From positions 1 to 30,884 of IMG/VR virus record IMGVR_UViG_3300018080_003472: a stretch of 30,884 nucleotides of DNA. One strand, 5' to 3'. Numbering within the stretch: the stretch's first letter is position 1; every line of letters begins with the position of its first letter. Shown here in pieces: positions 1 through 4,394 of this stretch. The notes below the pieces were generated by a model. The model was not told the origin of the DNA and searched no databases. It saw only the letters and a list, made by a program, of their open reading frames with translations. The position numbers and the translations under genes were made by a program. Source of the DNA: a virus.

Positions 1-226
1 CACGCGCCGCATGACACGCCGCATAATACGCCGCATCCGCCGCACGATACGCCGCACGCGCCGCAGCATCCGCCGCATCCGCCGCAGCATCCGCCGCAGC
101 ATCCGCCGCAGCATCCGCCGCAGCATGCGCCACAGCATGCGCCGCATAATACGCCGCATCCGCCGCATAATACGCCACATCCGCCGCAGCATCCGCCGCA
201 CGCGCCGCAGCATGCGCCGCATGATG
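1..226. repeat. 21-bp-period coding repeats (heptad tail of copy 1)
   Basis: Tandem, imperfect units of about 21 bases are built from cgccgca plus catccgc/taatacg/gcatacg variants. On the minus strand each unit encodes one A-A-[YHD]-[YA]-A-A-[DR] heptad of the protein starting at 607. The array continues past the window start. Because the period is a multiple of three, every frame stays open; the Arg-rich and His/Pro-rich translations in other frames are by-products. Confidence 0.85.
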
Positions 227-607
227 CGCATCATTGCACAATGACTCATCGCCAGTTTGTAGCCACGCTAAAACAACGTCTGGGGGGTCCCAGTACGGCA
301 CAACATCCAATGCGCAAAACCGTGCAAATTCGCGCAGCACCTCCGTTGCGTCGTACATCCACAACACCTCGCGCGTTGTGCCGACTATCTTATCGTCCCC
401 CTCAACAACATCACCGCCTATTTCAACGCGACACACAACGGGCCCAGGAGCGTATCTCAACGCATCCAGCGGGCGCTTGCTTCCATGTAAGCCACGCACA
501 CACAGCTCAGAAGGCCCATCGACCGTGTATGTTTCGCCAGCGATAACTTCGCGGTTATCACCGTAGCCAAGACAACGATCTTCTCTCAAAAAATGCCATG
601 CTTTCAC
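1..607 (-). CDS. DUF7666-like core protein with alanine-rich heptad tail, copy 1 (partial, runs off left edge)
   Basis: The frame is open from a GTG start (605-607) to the window edge, so the C-terminus is missing. A GGAGG ribosome site lies 5 bases before the GTG, and the start overlaps the stop of the TOPRIM gene as GTGA, which implies translational coupling. The first ~125 residues repeat the core of the copy at 1656-2366, with key pieces KAWHFLR, LGYGDNREV, ELCVRGLHGSKRPLDALRYAPG and REVLWMYDATEVLREF. I recognise this as the phage DUF7666-type family; its function is unknown. The core runs straight into a low-complexity helical tail in which an A-A-Y/H-Y/A-A-A-D/R heptad recurs, encoded by 21-bp DNA repeats. 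Base differences from copy 2 are few, so this is a recent duplicate. No catalytic role can be assigned from sequence. Confidence 0.8.
   Translation of the reverse strand, partial: MKAWHFLREDRCLGYGDNREVIAGETYTVDGPSELCVRGLHGSKRPLDALRYAPGPVVCRVEIGGDVVEGDDKIVGTTREVLWMYDATEVLREFARFCALDVVPYWDPPDVVLAWLQTGDESLCNDAHHAAHAAARAADAAADVAYYAADAAYYAAHAVAHAAADAAADAAADAAADAADAAARAAYRAADAAYYAACHAAR
227..606. repeat. Direct repeat, copy 1 (pairs with 1986-2365)
   Basis: About 380 bases match 1986-2365 with ten differences by my alignment, all of them transitions. The repeat covers the core of the DUF7666-like gene. Identity stops abruptly at the start codon (GTG here, ATG in copy 2) and at the junction with the heptad array. 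Both copies have the same orientation and flank the TOPRIM gene. Confidence 0.9.
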
Positions 608-1659
608 TGGGACCTCCTCATCTTGACACAGACAGTGGCCGGCAAACATTTTCTTATTTCCCCGGCATATTTATCCCCCTGCGCGTCGTTGTCTGTTGAT
701 ATTATTACATTTGTTCCTGCAGGCCACTGTATGCCCCTAAGAGCGTTTATGCCACCCTGGTATATACCCAACACCCCAAAAGCCTCGCACAGGCCCGTTC
801 CGGCGCTCCTGCGATCTGACTCTTTCCTACATGCCCACACACTTGCAGATATGTAGTCTGTGAGTCCCTCAACAATAACAACGCCGGCCAAATTGGCCTG
901 CCATTTGCCCCGCAATAAAGCCCTGCCGCGATCATTGGCAAACATGCTGTTTTTACAGCCATATCCCTTGGGCCAGACTGTTTTAGGTTTTTTATCTGAG
1001 TAAATAGCCCTAGCTTGCAATGTCACTAGTTTGCCCGTTGCGTCATATGCTGGCGCCACAAGGCCATAGGCCTTCAGCCACGGCGCCGGAAACCAGCTAG
1101 GTGCAACAAAATGTCGATATTTGTGACTATCTGATGGGGTTTTTGTCCCAATTTGGGTATTGTTGGGCACAATATTGTTACCGCCGGTCATGATATTGTT
1201 GCCGCTGGGCAATGCGCGAGCAATGTCCGGAGATATCCGCGACACGTCAAATTTTCGAGATCTCAGATATTTGATAGTGTCTAAATATATCTTATCACTG
1301 TGTTTTTCATTAAGTGGCCTGCAACTGTCCCAAAATGTGGCTATTTCATCAGCTGGCGGAAAATGGCACTGTGGATCCACAGATGGCTGGCCGTCATAAT
1401 TGGGGTTTGACTTACCTTGTCCCAGAGATCTAGAAACAATGTAATTCAATTCCCTTTCTGAAAATGTTTTATCTATGAGATGGGCTGCAGCTGCACAAAT
1501 TTCATCAGCTGTTTTTTTTTCTGATAGTCTGCTGGCGCCAATAAGACGCCCAAGGCCATAGGCTATTTTGTTTATTGTGTCACTGCGCTGACCCTTGCAG
1601 GCTTGCGATATTGCATCAATGCCATTTTGCATAGCTCGTTCAGCGTATATGTCATTCAT
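604..1659 (-). CDS. TOPRIM-domain primase-like protein
   Basis: A 351-residue product. The ATG at 1659 is chosen because it overlaps the stop of the upstream gene as ATGA; a longer frame would run into the upstream repeats. Residues ~15-85 resemble the helical segment seen in phage primase/helicase proteins (GQRSDTINKIAYGLGRLIGA, then ERELNYIVSRSLGQGK). Residues ~180-240 resemble a primase-associated segment (APAYDATGKLVTLQARAIY). The C-terminal TOPRIM fold has the conserved Glu in VVIVEGLTDY (E264) and the D-x-D pair in IISTDNDAQG (D323, D325) that bind catalytic metal. No zinc finger or helicase Walker motif is present, so it is either a stripped-down primase or another TOPRIM nucleotidyl-transfer enzyme. 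It is coupled at both ends to the two DUF7666-like genes. Confidence 0.8.
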   Translation of the reverse strand: MNDIYAERAMQNGIDAISQACKGQRSDTINKIAYGLGRLIGASRLSEKKTADEICAAAAHLIDKTFSERELNYIVSRSLGQGKSNPNYDGQPSVDPQCHFPPADEIATFWDSCRPLNEKHSDKIYLDTIKYLRSRKFDVSRISPDIARALPSGNNIMTGGNNIVPNNTQIGTKTPSDSHKYRHFVAPSWFPAPWLKAYGLVAPAYDATGKLVTLQARAIYSDKKPKTVWPKGYGCKNSMFANDRGRALLRGKWQANLAGVVIVEGLTDYISASVWACRKESDRRSAGTGLCEAFGVLGIYQGGINALRGIQWPAGTNVIISTDNDAQGDKYAGEIRKCLPATVCVKMRRSQ

Positions 1660-2366
1660 TTTGGCCTGCCTTCCATCAACATCTTGCTCAGCCGCGTGTT
1701 TTGCGCCACATCCGTCGCACAATACGCCATATCTGCCGCACGCGGCGTATAATACGCCGCGTGCGCCGTACAATACGCAGCACGCGCCGCAGCATACGCA
1801 GCACGCGCCGCACGATACGCCGCACGCGCCGCATCCGCCCCACGATACGCCGCACGCGCCGCATAATACGCCGCACGCGCCGCATAATACGCCGCATCCG
1901 CCGCAGCATACGCCGCATCCGCCGCAGCATACGCCGCACGCGCCGCATAATACGCCGCATCCGCCGCAGCATACGCCGCACTATACGCATCATTGCACAA
2001 TGACTCATCGCCAGTTTGTAGCCACGCTAAAACAACGTCTGGGGGGTCCCAGTACGGCACAACATCTAATGCGCAAAACCGTACAAATTCGCGCAGCACC
2101 TCCGTTGCGTCGTACATCCACAACACCTCGCGCGTTGTGCCGGCCATCTTATCGTCCCCCTCAACAACATCACCGCCTATTTCAACGCGACACACAACGG
2201 GCCCGGGGGCATATTTCAACGCATCCAGCGGGCGCTTGCTTCCATGTAAGCCACGCACACACAGCTCAGAAGGCCCATCGACCGTGTATGTTTCGCCAGC
2301 GATAACTTCGCGGTTATCGCCGTAGCCAAGACAACGATCTTTTCTCAAAAAATGCCATGCTTTCAT
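1656..2366 (-). CDS. DUF7666-like core protein with alanine-rich heptad tail, copy 2
   Basis: A 236-residue product. The ATG at 2366 is preceded by GGAGG with an 8-base spacer and overlaps the nuclease stop as ATGA. Residues 1-125 are the core: KAWHFLRKD, LGYGDNREV, GETYTVDGP, LCVRGLHGSKRPLDALKYAPG, CRVEIGGDVVEGDDK, TTREVLWMYDATEVLREF. Residues ~126-218 form an alanine-rich array with Tyr and Asp/Arg recurring every seven residues, which should be strongly helical. The tail ends in a basic, non-repetitive NTRLSKMLMEGRPK-type end. From memory this architecture matches the uncharacterised DUF7666 phage family, whose members often carry Ala-rich repeat tails. Biochemical function is unknown. Membership in an operon with a nuclease and a primase-like protein suggests an early DNA-metabolism or host-takeover role, but that is inference. 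Confidence 0.82.
   Translation of the reverse strand: MKAWHFLRKDRCLGYGDNREVIAGETYTVDGPSELCVRGLHGSKRPLDALKYAPGPVVCRVEIGGDVVEGDDKMAGTTREVLWMYDATEVLREFVRFCALDVVPYWDPPDVVLAWLQTGDESLCNDAYSAAYAAADAAYYAARAAYAAADAAYAAADAAYYAARAAYYAARAAYRGADAARAAYRAARAAYAAARAAYCTAHAAYYTPRAADMAYCATDVAQNTRLSKMLMEGRPK
1690..1985. repeat. 21-bp-period coding repeats (heptad tail of copy 2)
   Basis: Imperfect tandem units of about 21 bases (cgccgca followed by taatacg, cgatacg, gcatacg or catccgc) encode the Ala-rich heptads on the minus strand. The order of units differs from that in the array at 1-226, so the tails have diverged or been reshuffled while the neighbouring core stayed 97 percent identical. Confidence 0.85.
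1986..2365. repeat. Direct repeat, copy 2 (pairs with 227-606)
   Basis: Second copy of the ~380-base core duplication, in the same orientation and offset by 1759 bases from the first. Homologous recombination between the two would delete or amplify the intervening TOPRIM gene together with one heptad tail. Confidence 0.9.
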
Positions 2367-3529
2367 TTCAATTTCCTCCATCCCCATCGTGCAGCCATTT
2401 GCTTTTTTTCAAGCAAGCCCATCTCTCTGATGCCATCAAAAAAGGCCCTTCTGTCAGCCGGCTTTTTCTTGTGCTTTTTTAATGCTGTTTCTATGGCGCC
2501 TTTTGTTGTTTTGGCTGCATTCATTGCAGTTTCAACATCTGTTTCAAAAGCCAGGCTGTTTAGCACTGCTGTGTGATCTCGTATTTCATCCCTTGAAGAT
2601 GGTCTGCCCTTCCATTCGAGGCCTGCTTTCACATCAACAATGGGGCCATTTTCTAACACCCATCTCTTTGCAGCATCCTTGGCTTCATTGAGACGTTGTT
2701 CGAGTGCTGGTAGTGCCACAAGGAATTTGAATACATCTTTTTGGGCAAGAAATTCTCCACCCACATATGGCGCCATAACATGGACTTCAATGTCCTTGTA
2801 TTTTTGTTTGAAGTCATTGCAGTGAGATCTTGCTAAGCACATTGAACAATGTGCGCCAACATTGAATTTTTCTCTATTGTCCCAGATGAAAAGCAATTTT
2901 TCAGCCAGCATGTCAGCCATTTTTGCCAGCTGTTTTGCATCAACAACAACAGCATCCATATCCATTTTTGCCGGATAGACTTTGGCCACTGTGACAGCAT
3001 CAAAATGTTTCAGCTGTTTTGTGATAGTTACAGCATAGGCTATCATTTGCAGGTCATTTGCTGTTTTTTCCCATTGGCTTGGATCTGTGTAAAATTTGTA
3101 ATCAATAACATTGATATGCCCTGGGTTTTCGTGGCCATACCAATAAAGATCTATGTGGCCTGTTAATAAAATATCTGCAACGCTGCATTCTACTGGCACT
3201 TCAACGCCAAAATGATCGCCAGGCAGTGGCGCCACATCTGTTTTTTCAAACCAGGCCCATGCCTCGCGCAGTGTCAGCGCAAAGTCTTCTGTTGCGTCGC
3301 TTTCAGATAAAAACACATCGCCATCGCCACCCATCATCATTATTTCAAGATATTCATGGCCAAGTGTGCCCAGGTTTGTTGCTGACGTGCCCAGATCTAC
3401 ATTTTGCATGTTTAGCGCGTCTTGCAAGAAAACGCGCCCAGGGCATATAGTACCATTGTTGATACTGCTGGCCCTAATTGTGGGTTTGTAATTGGGATCA
3501 ATGTCCCAGGGGAATGGTTTTATTTCCAT
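2363..3529 (-). CDS. PD-(D/E)XK nuclease with Fe-S cysteine cluster (Cas4/AddB-like, DUF2800-type)
   Basis: A 388-residue product. The ATG at 3529 (MEIKPFPW) is chosen because it sits 7 bases after AAAGGTGG; a TTG two codons upstream is the alternative. Nuclease residues visible: LGHEYLE (H58), the LTGHIDLYW motif (D127), NVIDYKF (D143 and K145) and QMIAYA (Q161). Cysteines C29 (ICPGR) and C228, C231, C237 (CSMCLARSHC) have the split one-plus-three spacing of Cas4/AddB-type 4Fe-4S nucleases. The basic C-terminal third may be family-specific. The overall layout resembles the phage DUF2800 group. The likely role is end-processing exonuclease in phage recombination or replication. The gene overlaps its upstream neighbour by 10 bases and the downstream DUF7666-like gene by ATGA. 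Confidence 0.85.
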   Translation of the reverse strand: MEIKPFPWDIDPNYKPTIRASSINNGTICPGRVFLQDALNMQNVDLGTSATNLGTLGHEYLEIMMMGGDGDVFLSESDATEDFALTLREAWAWFEKTDVAPLPGDHFGVEVPVECSVADILLTGHIDLYWYGHENPGHINVIDYKFYTDPSQWEKTANDLQMIAYAVTITKQLKHFDAVTVAKVYPAKMDMDAVVVDAKQLAKMADMLAEKLLFIWDNREKFNVGAHCSMCLARSHCNDFKQKYKDIEVHVMAPYVGGEFLAQKDVFKFLVALPALEQRLNEAKDAAKRWVLENGPIVDVKAGLEWKGRPSSRDEIRDHTAVLNSLAFETDVETAMNAAKTTKGAIETALKKHKKKPADRRAFFDGIREMGLLEKKQMAARWGWRKLK

Positions 3530-4359
3530 GGCCAATCCACCTTTCTAAAAAAACCACCTCTGATCCTTGCTTTTTCCCCATCACAGTCAAGCAGGTCTTC
3601 CCTTTTAAACCTTGCTTCTATCAGCACGTCTGTTGGGTGATGTTTAAAATATGTGAACGCGTTGGCGGCAGATGTAACGTGAATTCCCGGACAGCACGTT
3701 CCACAGCCGGCTGGACACGCATCCGGATCGTACCATTCACCAATGGGCTGTTCAAACCGGCTATTCCATTTTCCTGTTAAATTGTCCCGGACGGCCCGAT
3801 ATGCTTTTGCTTCGCCATCCGCATCAAAGAATATCCCAATAAAACTTGCATGAAACAAAACGCGATCTCTGATGTTTTTGTCACACCAATCGCCACCATG
3901 CCAAATGCCACCACGCCAAACGCCACTATGCCAATCGCCACCACACCAATCGCCACCACGCCAAACGCCACTATGCCAATCGCCACCACACCAATCGCCA
4001 CCACGCCAAACGCCATCACGCCAAACGCCATCACGCCAAACGCCATCATGCCAAACGCCACCACGCCAATCGCCACCACGCCAAACGCCATCATGCCAAA
4101 TGCCATCACGCCAAACGCCACTATGCCAATCGCCACCACACCAAACGCCACCACGCCAAATGCCACCACGCCAAACGCCACTATGCCAATCGCCACCACG
4201 CCAATCGCCACCATGCCAAATGCCACCACGCCAAACGCCATCACGCCAAACGCCATCATGCCAAATAACGCAGCTACCATCCATTTCAACATTTTCATTT
4301 TTCACCGTGGCATTCAATAGCCACTGCGGAGCACGCGCCAGCTCTGAAATTCTCGCCAT
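3520..4359 (-). CDS. W-x-x-G pentapeptide-repeat protein with C-terminal DUF7666-like core
   Basis: A 279-residue product. The ATG at 4359 follows a strong GGAGG with a 5-base spacer. Residues 1-30 form a short lead-in (NATVKNENVEMDG). Residues 31-160 are 26 uninterrupted five-residue units of the form G-[VID]-W-[RHC]-[DGS], predicted to make a narrow beta-helix related to pentapeptide-repeat folds. Residues ~170-279 form a globular domain with AYRAVRDNLTG, PIGEWYDP, a Cys-rich CPAGCGTCCPG, GIHVTSAANAFTYF, VLIEARFKREDLLDCDGEKAR and GGFF. The order of these pieces parallels the core of the DUF7666-like proteins downstream (aromatic-R start, IGE, C..G(L/I)H, A..Y/F, V..E, D..EK.R). This is the first gene of the left operon. 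Similar W/F-x-x-G arrays occur in other phage proteins; I know of no demonstrated function. Confidence 0.8.
   Translation of the reverse strand: MARISELARAPQWLLNATVKNENVEMDGSCVIWHDGVWRDGVWRGGIWHGGDWRGGDWHSGVWRGGIWRGGVWCGGDWHSGVWRDGIWHDGVWRGGDWRGGVWHDGVWRDGVWRDGVWRGGDWCGGDWHSGVWRGGDWCGGDWHSGVWRGGIWHGGDWCDKNIRDRVLFHASFIGIFFDADGEAKAYRAVRDNLTGKWNSRFEQPIGEWYDPDACPAGCGTCCPGIHVTSAANAFTYFKHHPTDVLIEARFKREDLLDCDGEKARIRGGFFRKVDWPWK
3880..4269. repeat. 15-bp tandem repeat array, 26 units
   Basis: Twenty-six in-phase 15-base units (on the plus strand cgccaAACGCCAcca and close variants such as cgccaATCGCCActa) encode the W-x-x-G pentapeptides on the minus strand. Units differ mainly at a few positions, giving V/I/D before Trp and R/H/C after it. 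Since 15 is a multiple of three, long open frames exist in several frames through the array; I treat these as by-products. Confidence 0.9.
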
Positions 4360-4394
4360 GTTTTCCTCCGAATACTGTCAGATGTTGACAGCAT
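4314..4394 (-). CDS. Possible 26-codon leader ORF overlapping the start of the repeat-protein gene
   Basis: An ATG at 4394 has GGAGG 4 bases upstream and opens a 26-codon frame (MLSTSDSIRRKTW...). It passes through the ribosome site and start of the 279-residue gene in another frame and stops at 4314. It could be a translation-attenuating leader peptide, or the GGAGG-ATG could be chance in a purine-rich leader. It has no recognisable homology and conservation is unknown. Confidence 0.25.
   Translation of the reverse strand: MLSTSDSIRRKTWREFQSWRVLRSGY
4375..4391. promoter_or_regulatory. Operator-like dyad CTGTCA-N5-TGACAG
   Basis: Perfect 6-base arms with a 5-base spacer lie 16-32 bases upstream of the ATG at 4359, in the leader of the left operon. 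The right arm contains TTGACA on the plus strand. The geometry (hexamer arms, N5) matches that of the other dyad at 4583-4601 although the sequence differs. It is consistent with a repressor site; the binding protein is not identified. Confidence 0.4.

Follow-up and report, generated by a model that had tools for sequence, protein, structure and literature searches.

The five genes at one end of this viral contig raise the question of whether a single small domain has been joined to different short-period repeats in neighbouring proteins and, if so, what that domain is. The window, meaning the whole stretch of 30,884 nucleotides that was analysed, comprises positions 1-30,884 of IMG/VR record IMGVR_UViG_3300018080_003472, and the five-gene run occupies positions 1-4359, with all features described here on the minus strand. 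The initial annotation had assigned one core to three proteins, and the open reading frames were found where it had placed them, at 3520..4359 (p5), 1656..2366 (p3) and <1..607 (p1, truncated by the contig end). Its description of one core on different repeat modules was also borne out, the core being N-terminal in p1 and p3 and C-terminal in p5.

Both p1 and p3 matched DUF7666 (PF24703), at E = 1.5e-10 and 3e-10 and with 41.9 and 40.9 bits respectively, above the curated Pfam cut-off of 27 bits. In p3 the DUF7666 core (2022..2366; model pLDDT 91.6) is followed by a tail of Ala-rich 7-residue (21-base) repeats (1735..1981), and p1 likewise joins a DUF7666 core to Ala-rich heptads. It was noted that the two cores are 96% identical as protein and approximately 90% identical as DNA, and that the shared DNA begins at the start codon, with the repeat tail as the main difference. 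This near-identity and the match from the start codon indicate that p1 and p3 derive from one recent duplication and are not two independent witnesses, which reduces the three copies first counted within 4.4 kb to effectively two. DUF7666 proteins elsewhere in phages and prophages have the same arrangement of a core and a short-period repeat tail; in most of those sampled the tail consists of 8- or 9-residue Gly/Ser/Ala/Thr repeats, whereas in members of the window type it consists of Ala heptads, and repeat number differs strongly among relatives. The duplication could also mean that the DUF7666 copies are low-function cargo, a duplicating cassette that inserts after stop codons as ATGA or GTGA and whose tails grow by slippage. 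The DNA shared from the start codon, the variable repeat number and the tandem occurrence of p5-type genes (L031, L032) would fit such a cassette; however, in both p1 and p3 the frame has stayed open and the core conserved, the fold is widespread, and cargo status says nothing about the core itself. We consider this explanation rather unlikely.

The p5 protein comprises an N-cap (residues 1-32; 4264..4359) with the consensus MKISELxNAPxWLxxAxTxNADVxIxDGxV, a pentapeptide array (residues 33-157; 3889..4263) and a core (residues 165-279; 3523..3867), and this three-part layout recurs in six other viral contigs. The array had been described as 26 W-x-x-G pentapeptides; we counted 25 exact W-[RHC]-[GDS]-G-[VDI] units, the 26th W lacking its G. 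The N-cap is common to W-x-x-G proteins both with and without the p5 core. Other W-x-x-G phage proteins have the cap and array of p5 but either carry a different C-terminal domain, marked by IGC/AGC...W motifs, or lack one, and among W-x-x-G proteins the p5 core was encountered only in the p5 type (seven contigs including the window). The proposed modular toolkit proved wider than had been seen, with DUF7666 joined to other repeats elsewhere and W-x-x-G arrays joined to other domains. No Pfam or PHROG model was found for the W-x-x-G pentapeptide proteins. The p5 core matched nothing in Pfam (the curated DUF7666 model included), NCBIfam or PHROG, and a sequence search of phage records, plasmids and bacterial genome contigs returned no significant relatives; the weak matches to RIIB in that search are, in hindsight, real. 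DUF5758 (PF19062), which we take to be a domain of pentapeptide-repeat proteins, was considered as a bridge and rejected, as nothing in the window matched it at a threshold as loose as E = 10, and it is presumably like p5 by layout only, with pentapeptide repeats followed by a small domain.

Profile, HMM and structure-model searches identified the p5 core as a C-terminal RIIB domain of the T4 type (RIIB-C). The p5 family aligned with RIIB-C in hhalign at a score of 53.9 (P = 6e-9), which none of 100 shuffles reached (maximum 20.9). The p5-family HMM gave 22.4 bits for T4 RIIB and 21-22 bits for two Vibrio RIIBs (RIIB range 16-22), compared to at most 8.4 bits on 3000 shuffled sequences, and an RIIB-C HMM built without p5 ranked p5 first among the 194 window ORFs (E = 4e-4; next 2.4). 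Using the AlphaFold model of the core (pLDDT 91.1, pTM 0.84), Foldseek returned 19 BFVD matches at E <= 1e-3. Of those with a name, the majority were RIIB, and the best viral match was an RIIB at E = 3.5e-6 and TM 0.74, which compares prediction with prediction; proteins of giant viruses were also among the BFVD matches. All five PHROGs of the RIIB lysis inhibitor (609, 3803, 36818, 11221 and 2886, from T4-like, N4-like and other phages) matched residues 191-310 of T4 RIIB, the same domain as the p5 core. The C-terminal domain of RIIB (T4 residues about 190-310) is homologous to the whole p5 core, and a leading helix, LxxFMxxxxIxxxxDGxxxAY[KR], is common to the two. In the remainder the proteins differ, RIIB having an N-terminal HTH, a middle region and RIIA as partner, and p5 having the N-cap and W-x-x-G array instead. 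Consistent with this, p5 matched no RIIB PHROG, and its N-cap gave no HMM match to RIIB, so that we rejected the idea of a RIIB middle region into which the array had been inserted. There is no Pfam model for RIIB-C, and the RIIB identity of the core had been missed in the initial annotation.

The relation between p5 and DUF7666 was then found to run through RIIB. Direct BLASTP of p5 against DUF7666 gave no match, and the direct profile-profile comparison of the p5 core with DUF7666 gave P = 0.03, which was reached by 7 of 200 column shuffles and is background. RIIB-C and DUF7666 aligned in hhalign at 34.1 (P = 3e-5; none of 100 shuffles, maximum 23.3), and both RIIB-C links, to p5 and to DUF7666, are whole-domain and in register. 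A DUF7666 HMM other than that of Pfam, run on the same 194 ORFs, placed p5 directly after p1 and p3 (E = 0.14, 5.9 bits; next 0.92), and DUF7666-named proteins were returned with probability 1.00 (E = 5.8e-3 and 1.5e-2) when BFVD was searched with the p5 core. The p5-core and DUF7666 models follow one element order, namely a strand, a short strand, a strand bearing GIH or GLH, a helix, a long strand and two further strands. Three sites mark the superfamily: the first strand carries A-[YWF]-[KRH], a middle strand carries C-x-x-G-[LIF]-H, and a K lies close to the end. DUF7666 lacks the leading helix that is present in RIIB-C and p5.

Since the direct similarity lies at background, it is the RIIB bridge and the structure models that establish the p5 core, RIIB-C and DUF7666 as one superfamily with a shared predicted fold, and homology among them is very likely in the explanation that we prefer. 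The pieces shared by p5 and DUF7666 could instead be coincidental, as the two direct comparisons would allow, but with links to RIIB-C that each beat all 100 shuffles, the same element order in both models and DUF7666-named proteins among the structural matches, chance is extremely unlikely. The claim of a core shared beyond chance thus failed in direct comparison and held by way of RIIB and the models; once RIIB supplied a deeper profile, the two cores showed neither different folds nor a lack of profile similarity. Carriers of the superfamily include W-x-x-G arrays, Ala heptads, 8- or 9-residue Gly-Ser-Ala repeats and HTH domains. It was also noted that p5-type and DUF7666 genes occur together in 3 of 7 p5-type contigs, compared to 0 of 20 W-x-x-G contigs without the core (p = 0.012; p = 0.046 without the window), a co-occurrence that is suggestive only.

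We examined the setting of these genes, which overlap end to end in the order p5, exonuclease, p3, TOPRIM and p1. The second gene, p4 (2363..3529), whose start overlaps the end of p5, encodes a PD-(D/E)XK exonuclease (PF12705, E = 6.4e-11; phrog_69 exonuclease, E = 1.5e-17), and p2 (604..1659) encodes a TOPRIM (primase-like) protein (PF13155, E = 2.3e-5; phrog_239 DNA primase/helicase, E = 2.2e-4). The p3 ATG at 2366 overlaps the p4 stop as ATGA, p2 overlaps p3 by another ATGA, and the p1 GTG at 607 overlaps the p2 stop as GTGA; purine-rich ribosome sites accompany these overlaps. Such a layout argues for translation from one transcript, which very probably carries all five genes. A perfect inverted repeat read from the sequence, CTGTCA-ACATC-TGACAG (4375..4391), lies 15 bases before the p5 start codon and is a possible candidate operator of the operon.

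The suggested coupling to a nuclease and a TOPRIM protein is present here as an overlapping operon, but tblastn did not find these neighbours beside relatives, whose neighbourhoods do not preserve the individual genes. Relatives adjoin exonuclease genes (L049) or lie upstream of genes for a Sak4-like annealing protein, a replication initiator and a DnaB helicase (L051), and a recombination or replication neighbourhood may therefore recur around them. This setting bears on whether the proteins are instead displayed on the virion or surface, with fibrous rods that bear the core as a head for binding receptors or glycans. Short-period repeats with small terminal domains are typical of fibres, and one DUF7666 tail weakly resembles the beta-roll family PF21300 (E = 0.04). 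However, the genes stand in a run with a nuclease and TOPRIM gene and apart from the head and tail genes, relatives adjoin replication genes, and the closest relatives, RIIB, are filed by PHROG under lysis and not as structural, which makes display very unlikely.

An intriguing question is whether the superfamily has an ADP-ribosyltransferase (ART)-like fold, as a small (pseudo)enzyme binding NAD, nucleotide or RNA ends, in which case the target of RIIB, DUF7666 and p5 would be a nucleotide signal of the host or of a defence system. The same CNF-type protein ranked first in the PDB Foldseek searches with both models (E = 0.5 and 0.4), the DUF7666-model match covering its domains 4-5, and the p5-core list was rich in ART folds, including the PARP domains of PARP10, RCD1 and SRO1 and the TreTu and RhsP2 domains. 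The conserved Y-[KR] on the first strand and G-[IL]-H-[VA] before the helix also stand at what we take to be the motif places of the ART fold. However, the PDB matches of both models were not significant (TM about 0.4 or less), the enrichment was seen for p5 only, with no other recognised ART among the DUF7666-model matches listed, and no conserved Glu of the ART triads was seen, the residue conserved there being Lys. KptA was tried as a sequence link and rejected, the RIIB-C and DUF7666 profiles scoring at or below shuffles; RIIB-C plus p5 gave 18.4 (P = 0.035). The ART-fold resemblance of the two predicted cores is weak, and we regard an ART-like superfamily as unlikely. Its broadest form, in which RIIB-C, DUF7666 and the W-x-x-G-linked cores would be one large viral superfamily of ART-derived fold for sensing or modifying a defence signal based on a nucleotide or linked to NAD, and which phages (perhaps also giant viruses, via ankyrin proteins) would use as a counter-defence toolkit by mounting it on exchangeable repeat scaffolds, is quite improbable. 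If true, it would be the first biochemical hypothesis for T4 RIIB.

Our preferred explanation combines the RIIB-C/DUF7666 superfamily and the single operon with a role of p5, p1 and p3 as early-expressed, non-enzymatic adaptor or sensor proteins, early expression being suggested by gene neighbours only, and we place the probability of the whole at roughly 0.6. The small RIIB-type domain would bind a component of the host or of a rival element; that no catalytic family was identified for the core hints weakly at such a binding role. The repeat module (W-x-x-G, Ala heptads or Gly-Ser-Ala) would give length, multivalency or oligomerisation, a part that in T4 RIIB would fall to the HTH and the middle region. 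A search of the window and of six p5-type contigs, some of which are fragmentary, gave no GHKL ATPase of the RIIA type (PF13589), so the system would need a partner other than RIIA, or none. The infection would be protected, in the manner of RIIB, while replication and recombination proceed, with Rex-type abortive systems as one example of what it is protected from. This protective function, in host takeover or counter-defence, is a tentative proposal by analogy, as in five diverse phages RIIA and RIIB act against RexAB and can be dispensed with where it is absent (PMC11879866). In the literature searched, we found neither a function for any p5-type or DUF7666 protein nor a link of RIIB to DUF7666 or to an ART.

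Benzer's fine mapping and the triplet-code experiment were both carried out at the rII locus, and to our knowledge the molecular job of RIIA and RIIB is still open after seventy years. The RII module was called widespread yet poorly understood in a 2025 paper (PMC11879866), and RIIB has been treated as a transcription factor (PMC7824862). The present analysis names the C-terminal domain of a class of phage proteins that no family library searched recognises. It presents the RIIB C-terminal domain as a mobile module, shared with the DUF7666 repeat proteins of phages and prophages and found without RIIA or an HTH, and this status sets the domain apart from the remainder of RIIB. Small proteins are now at hand in which its fold, its ligand and its anti-Rex activity may be tested.

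The minus strand of the 30,884-base window, a single viral contig, carries head, tail and lysis genes (names partly by our own reading), and at its low end five minus-strand genes form an overlapping run. These encode the W-x-x-G repeat protein p5 with its C-terminal core (3520-4359), a PD-(D/E)XK exonuclease (2363-3529), the DUF7666 protein p3 with Ala heptads (1656-2366), a TOPRIM protein (604-1659) and a second DUF7666 protein with Ala heptads, p1 (<1-607). Ten bases are common to the p5 and exonuclease genes, ATGA overlaps were found at exonuclease/p3 and p3/TOPRIM, and a GTGA overlap at TOPRIM/p1; because of these overlaps, co-translation of the run is very likely in the window phage. It was also noted that a perfect 6-base inverted repeat (CTGTCA-ACATC-TGACAG, 4375-4391) stands 15 bases ahead of the p5 start codon and looks like a candidate operator; its CTGT...ACAG ends are similar to a LexA box, with the spacing one base over.

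The initial annotation had described one core on three neighbouring proteins, p5, p3 and p1, and both this observation and their coordinates were correct. We found PF24703 matches in p1 and p3 (E about 1e-10), followed by Ala-rich heptads, a layout that also occurs in other viral contigs and one Bacillota MAG contig. The two cores have 96% protein identity and the DNA is ~90% identical beginning at the start codon; the pair is a single recent duplication. A GCGGCG-type codon repeat keeps their Ala-heptad tails (1735-1981 and 5-221) free of stops in several frames of either strand, and long spurious ORFs, Arg-rich and Pro/His-rich, result.

In p5, an N-cap is followed by 25 exact W-x-x-G-x units and a core of ~115 residues, which matched nothing in any family library searched. 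Through a DNA-pattern search for W-x-x-G arrays, which gave 39 viral stretches, and a profile search, the p5-type core was found at ~50% identity in six further contigs: L024, L031/L049, L032/L047 (two copies), L041/L050, L016/L051 and L048. Tandem pairs were observed in L031/L049 and L032/L047; the second L031 copy lost its core after RLAFMA, apparently by frameshift or truncation, and a TnpB/OrfB-type IS605 gene (L047:3097-4245:-) lies downstream of the other pair. Since the N-cap is common to W-x-x-G proteins ending in different domains, the C-terminal module is exchangeable. Phage W-x-x-G proteins with another C-terminal domain were recorded in L012, L020, L022, L034, L036, L039 and L043, with a p5-like N-cap where the start is in view and, in several, a common I[GA]C[KRE]...W motif.

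Direct comparison of the p5 core with DUF7666 gave no BLASTP match, and the profile-profile comparison proposed in the initial annotation was at background (P 0.03, equalled by 7/200 column shuffles). Because these sequence tests failed, both cores were modelled from alignments of the window and related loci (pLDDT 91.1 for p5, 91.6 for DUF7666). Both models are confident and have the same element order, in line with the shared fold that the annotation had named as supporting its idea: strand, short strands, G-[IL]-H strand, one helix, long strand, two strands.

Compared by Foldseek with predicted viral proteins, the p5 model gave 19 matches at E <= 1e-3, led by RIIB (E 3.5e-6, TM 0.74), with proteins named DUF7666 further down (probability 1.00). 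The p5-family HMM scored T4 RIIB and three divergent relatives at 22.4, 21.7, 21.2 and 16.2 bits, against a maximum of 8.4 bits in 3000 shuffles of those sequences. In T4 RIIB (L147:1466-2404:-), all five RIIB PHROGs match residues 191-310, which correspond to this C-terminal domain (RIIB-C); Pfam has no model for ~190-310, and its sole matches in the protein are weak ones to HTH families at the N-terminal end. With 13 RIIB domains added to the four fetched, hhalign linked RIIB-C to the p5 family (53.9, P 6e-9; shuffles <= 20.9) and to DUF7666 (34.1, P 3e-5; shuffles <= 23.3), both links spanning the whole domain in register at C-x-x-G-[LIF]-H. A RIIB-C HMM built without p5 ranked p5 first of 194 window ORFs (E 4e-4; next 2.4), and a DUF7666 HMM ranked it third, behind p1 and p3. 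As independent evidence, the Pfam DUF7666 model has a sub-threshold hit (E 0.015) at C-x-x-G-[LIF]-H in the RIIB-like protein from phage Astolliot. We regard homology as shown for the p5 core and RIIB-C, and as well supported for RIIB-C and DUF7666. The annotation's interpretation was partly correct and is improved by recognising in the core the C-terminal domain of RIIB.

Its idea of a modular core on repeats was borne out: among 80 viral loci related to a canonical DUF7666 protein, the domain mostly precedes 8- or 9-residue repeats (e.g. GYQSAASNT, GDSGTATA), window-type members carry Ala heptads, and giant-virus ankyrin proteins are present in the Foldseek list. In many DUF7666 proteins (L072, L082, L094, L106 and others), the 9-residue repeats lead into another conserved domain that ends the protein, SVAxSxGIEGRAKASAGSAIVL...ILHIRASKVGENGVKPDTWYQL.

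The proposed functional system with nuclease and TOPRIM genes agrees with the overlapping run in the window, but neither gene was found adjoining relatives. The p5-type genes do, however, lie repeatedly in the vicinity of recombination and replication genes, namely exonucleases in L049 and a Sak4-like annealing protein, replication initiator and DnaB helicase in L051. Both p5-type and DUF7666 genes occurred in 3/7 contigs, directly adjacent in L024, and in 0/20 control contigs, a co-occurrence that is suggestive only.

In several phages, RIIA/RIIB counteract RexAB and can be dispensed with where it is absent (PMC11879866); their mechanism of action is not known (PMC11879866; PMC8594841). RIIB has been described as a transcription factor (PMC7824862), a label that would fit the HTH and leaves the C-terminal domain unexplained. 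Unlike RIIB, p5 is without an HTH, and RIIA was not found near it. An alternative of low probability is that the common fold is like that of an ADP-ribosyltransferase (ART): the PDB matches, none of them significant, share this theme for the p5 model, and comparison with the ART family KptA gives it no support. Most economically, RIIB-C would be a portable binding module, and p5, p3 and p1 may be early adaptor proteins with a RIIB-like protective function, using their repeats as a scaffold. Recognition of the core as part of RIIB opens a long-standing question to small, testable proteins.
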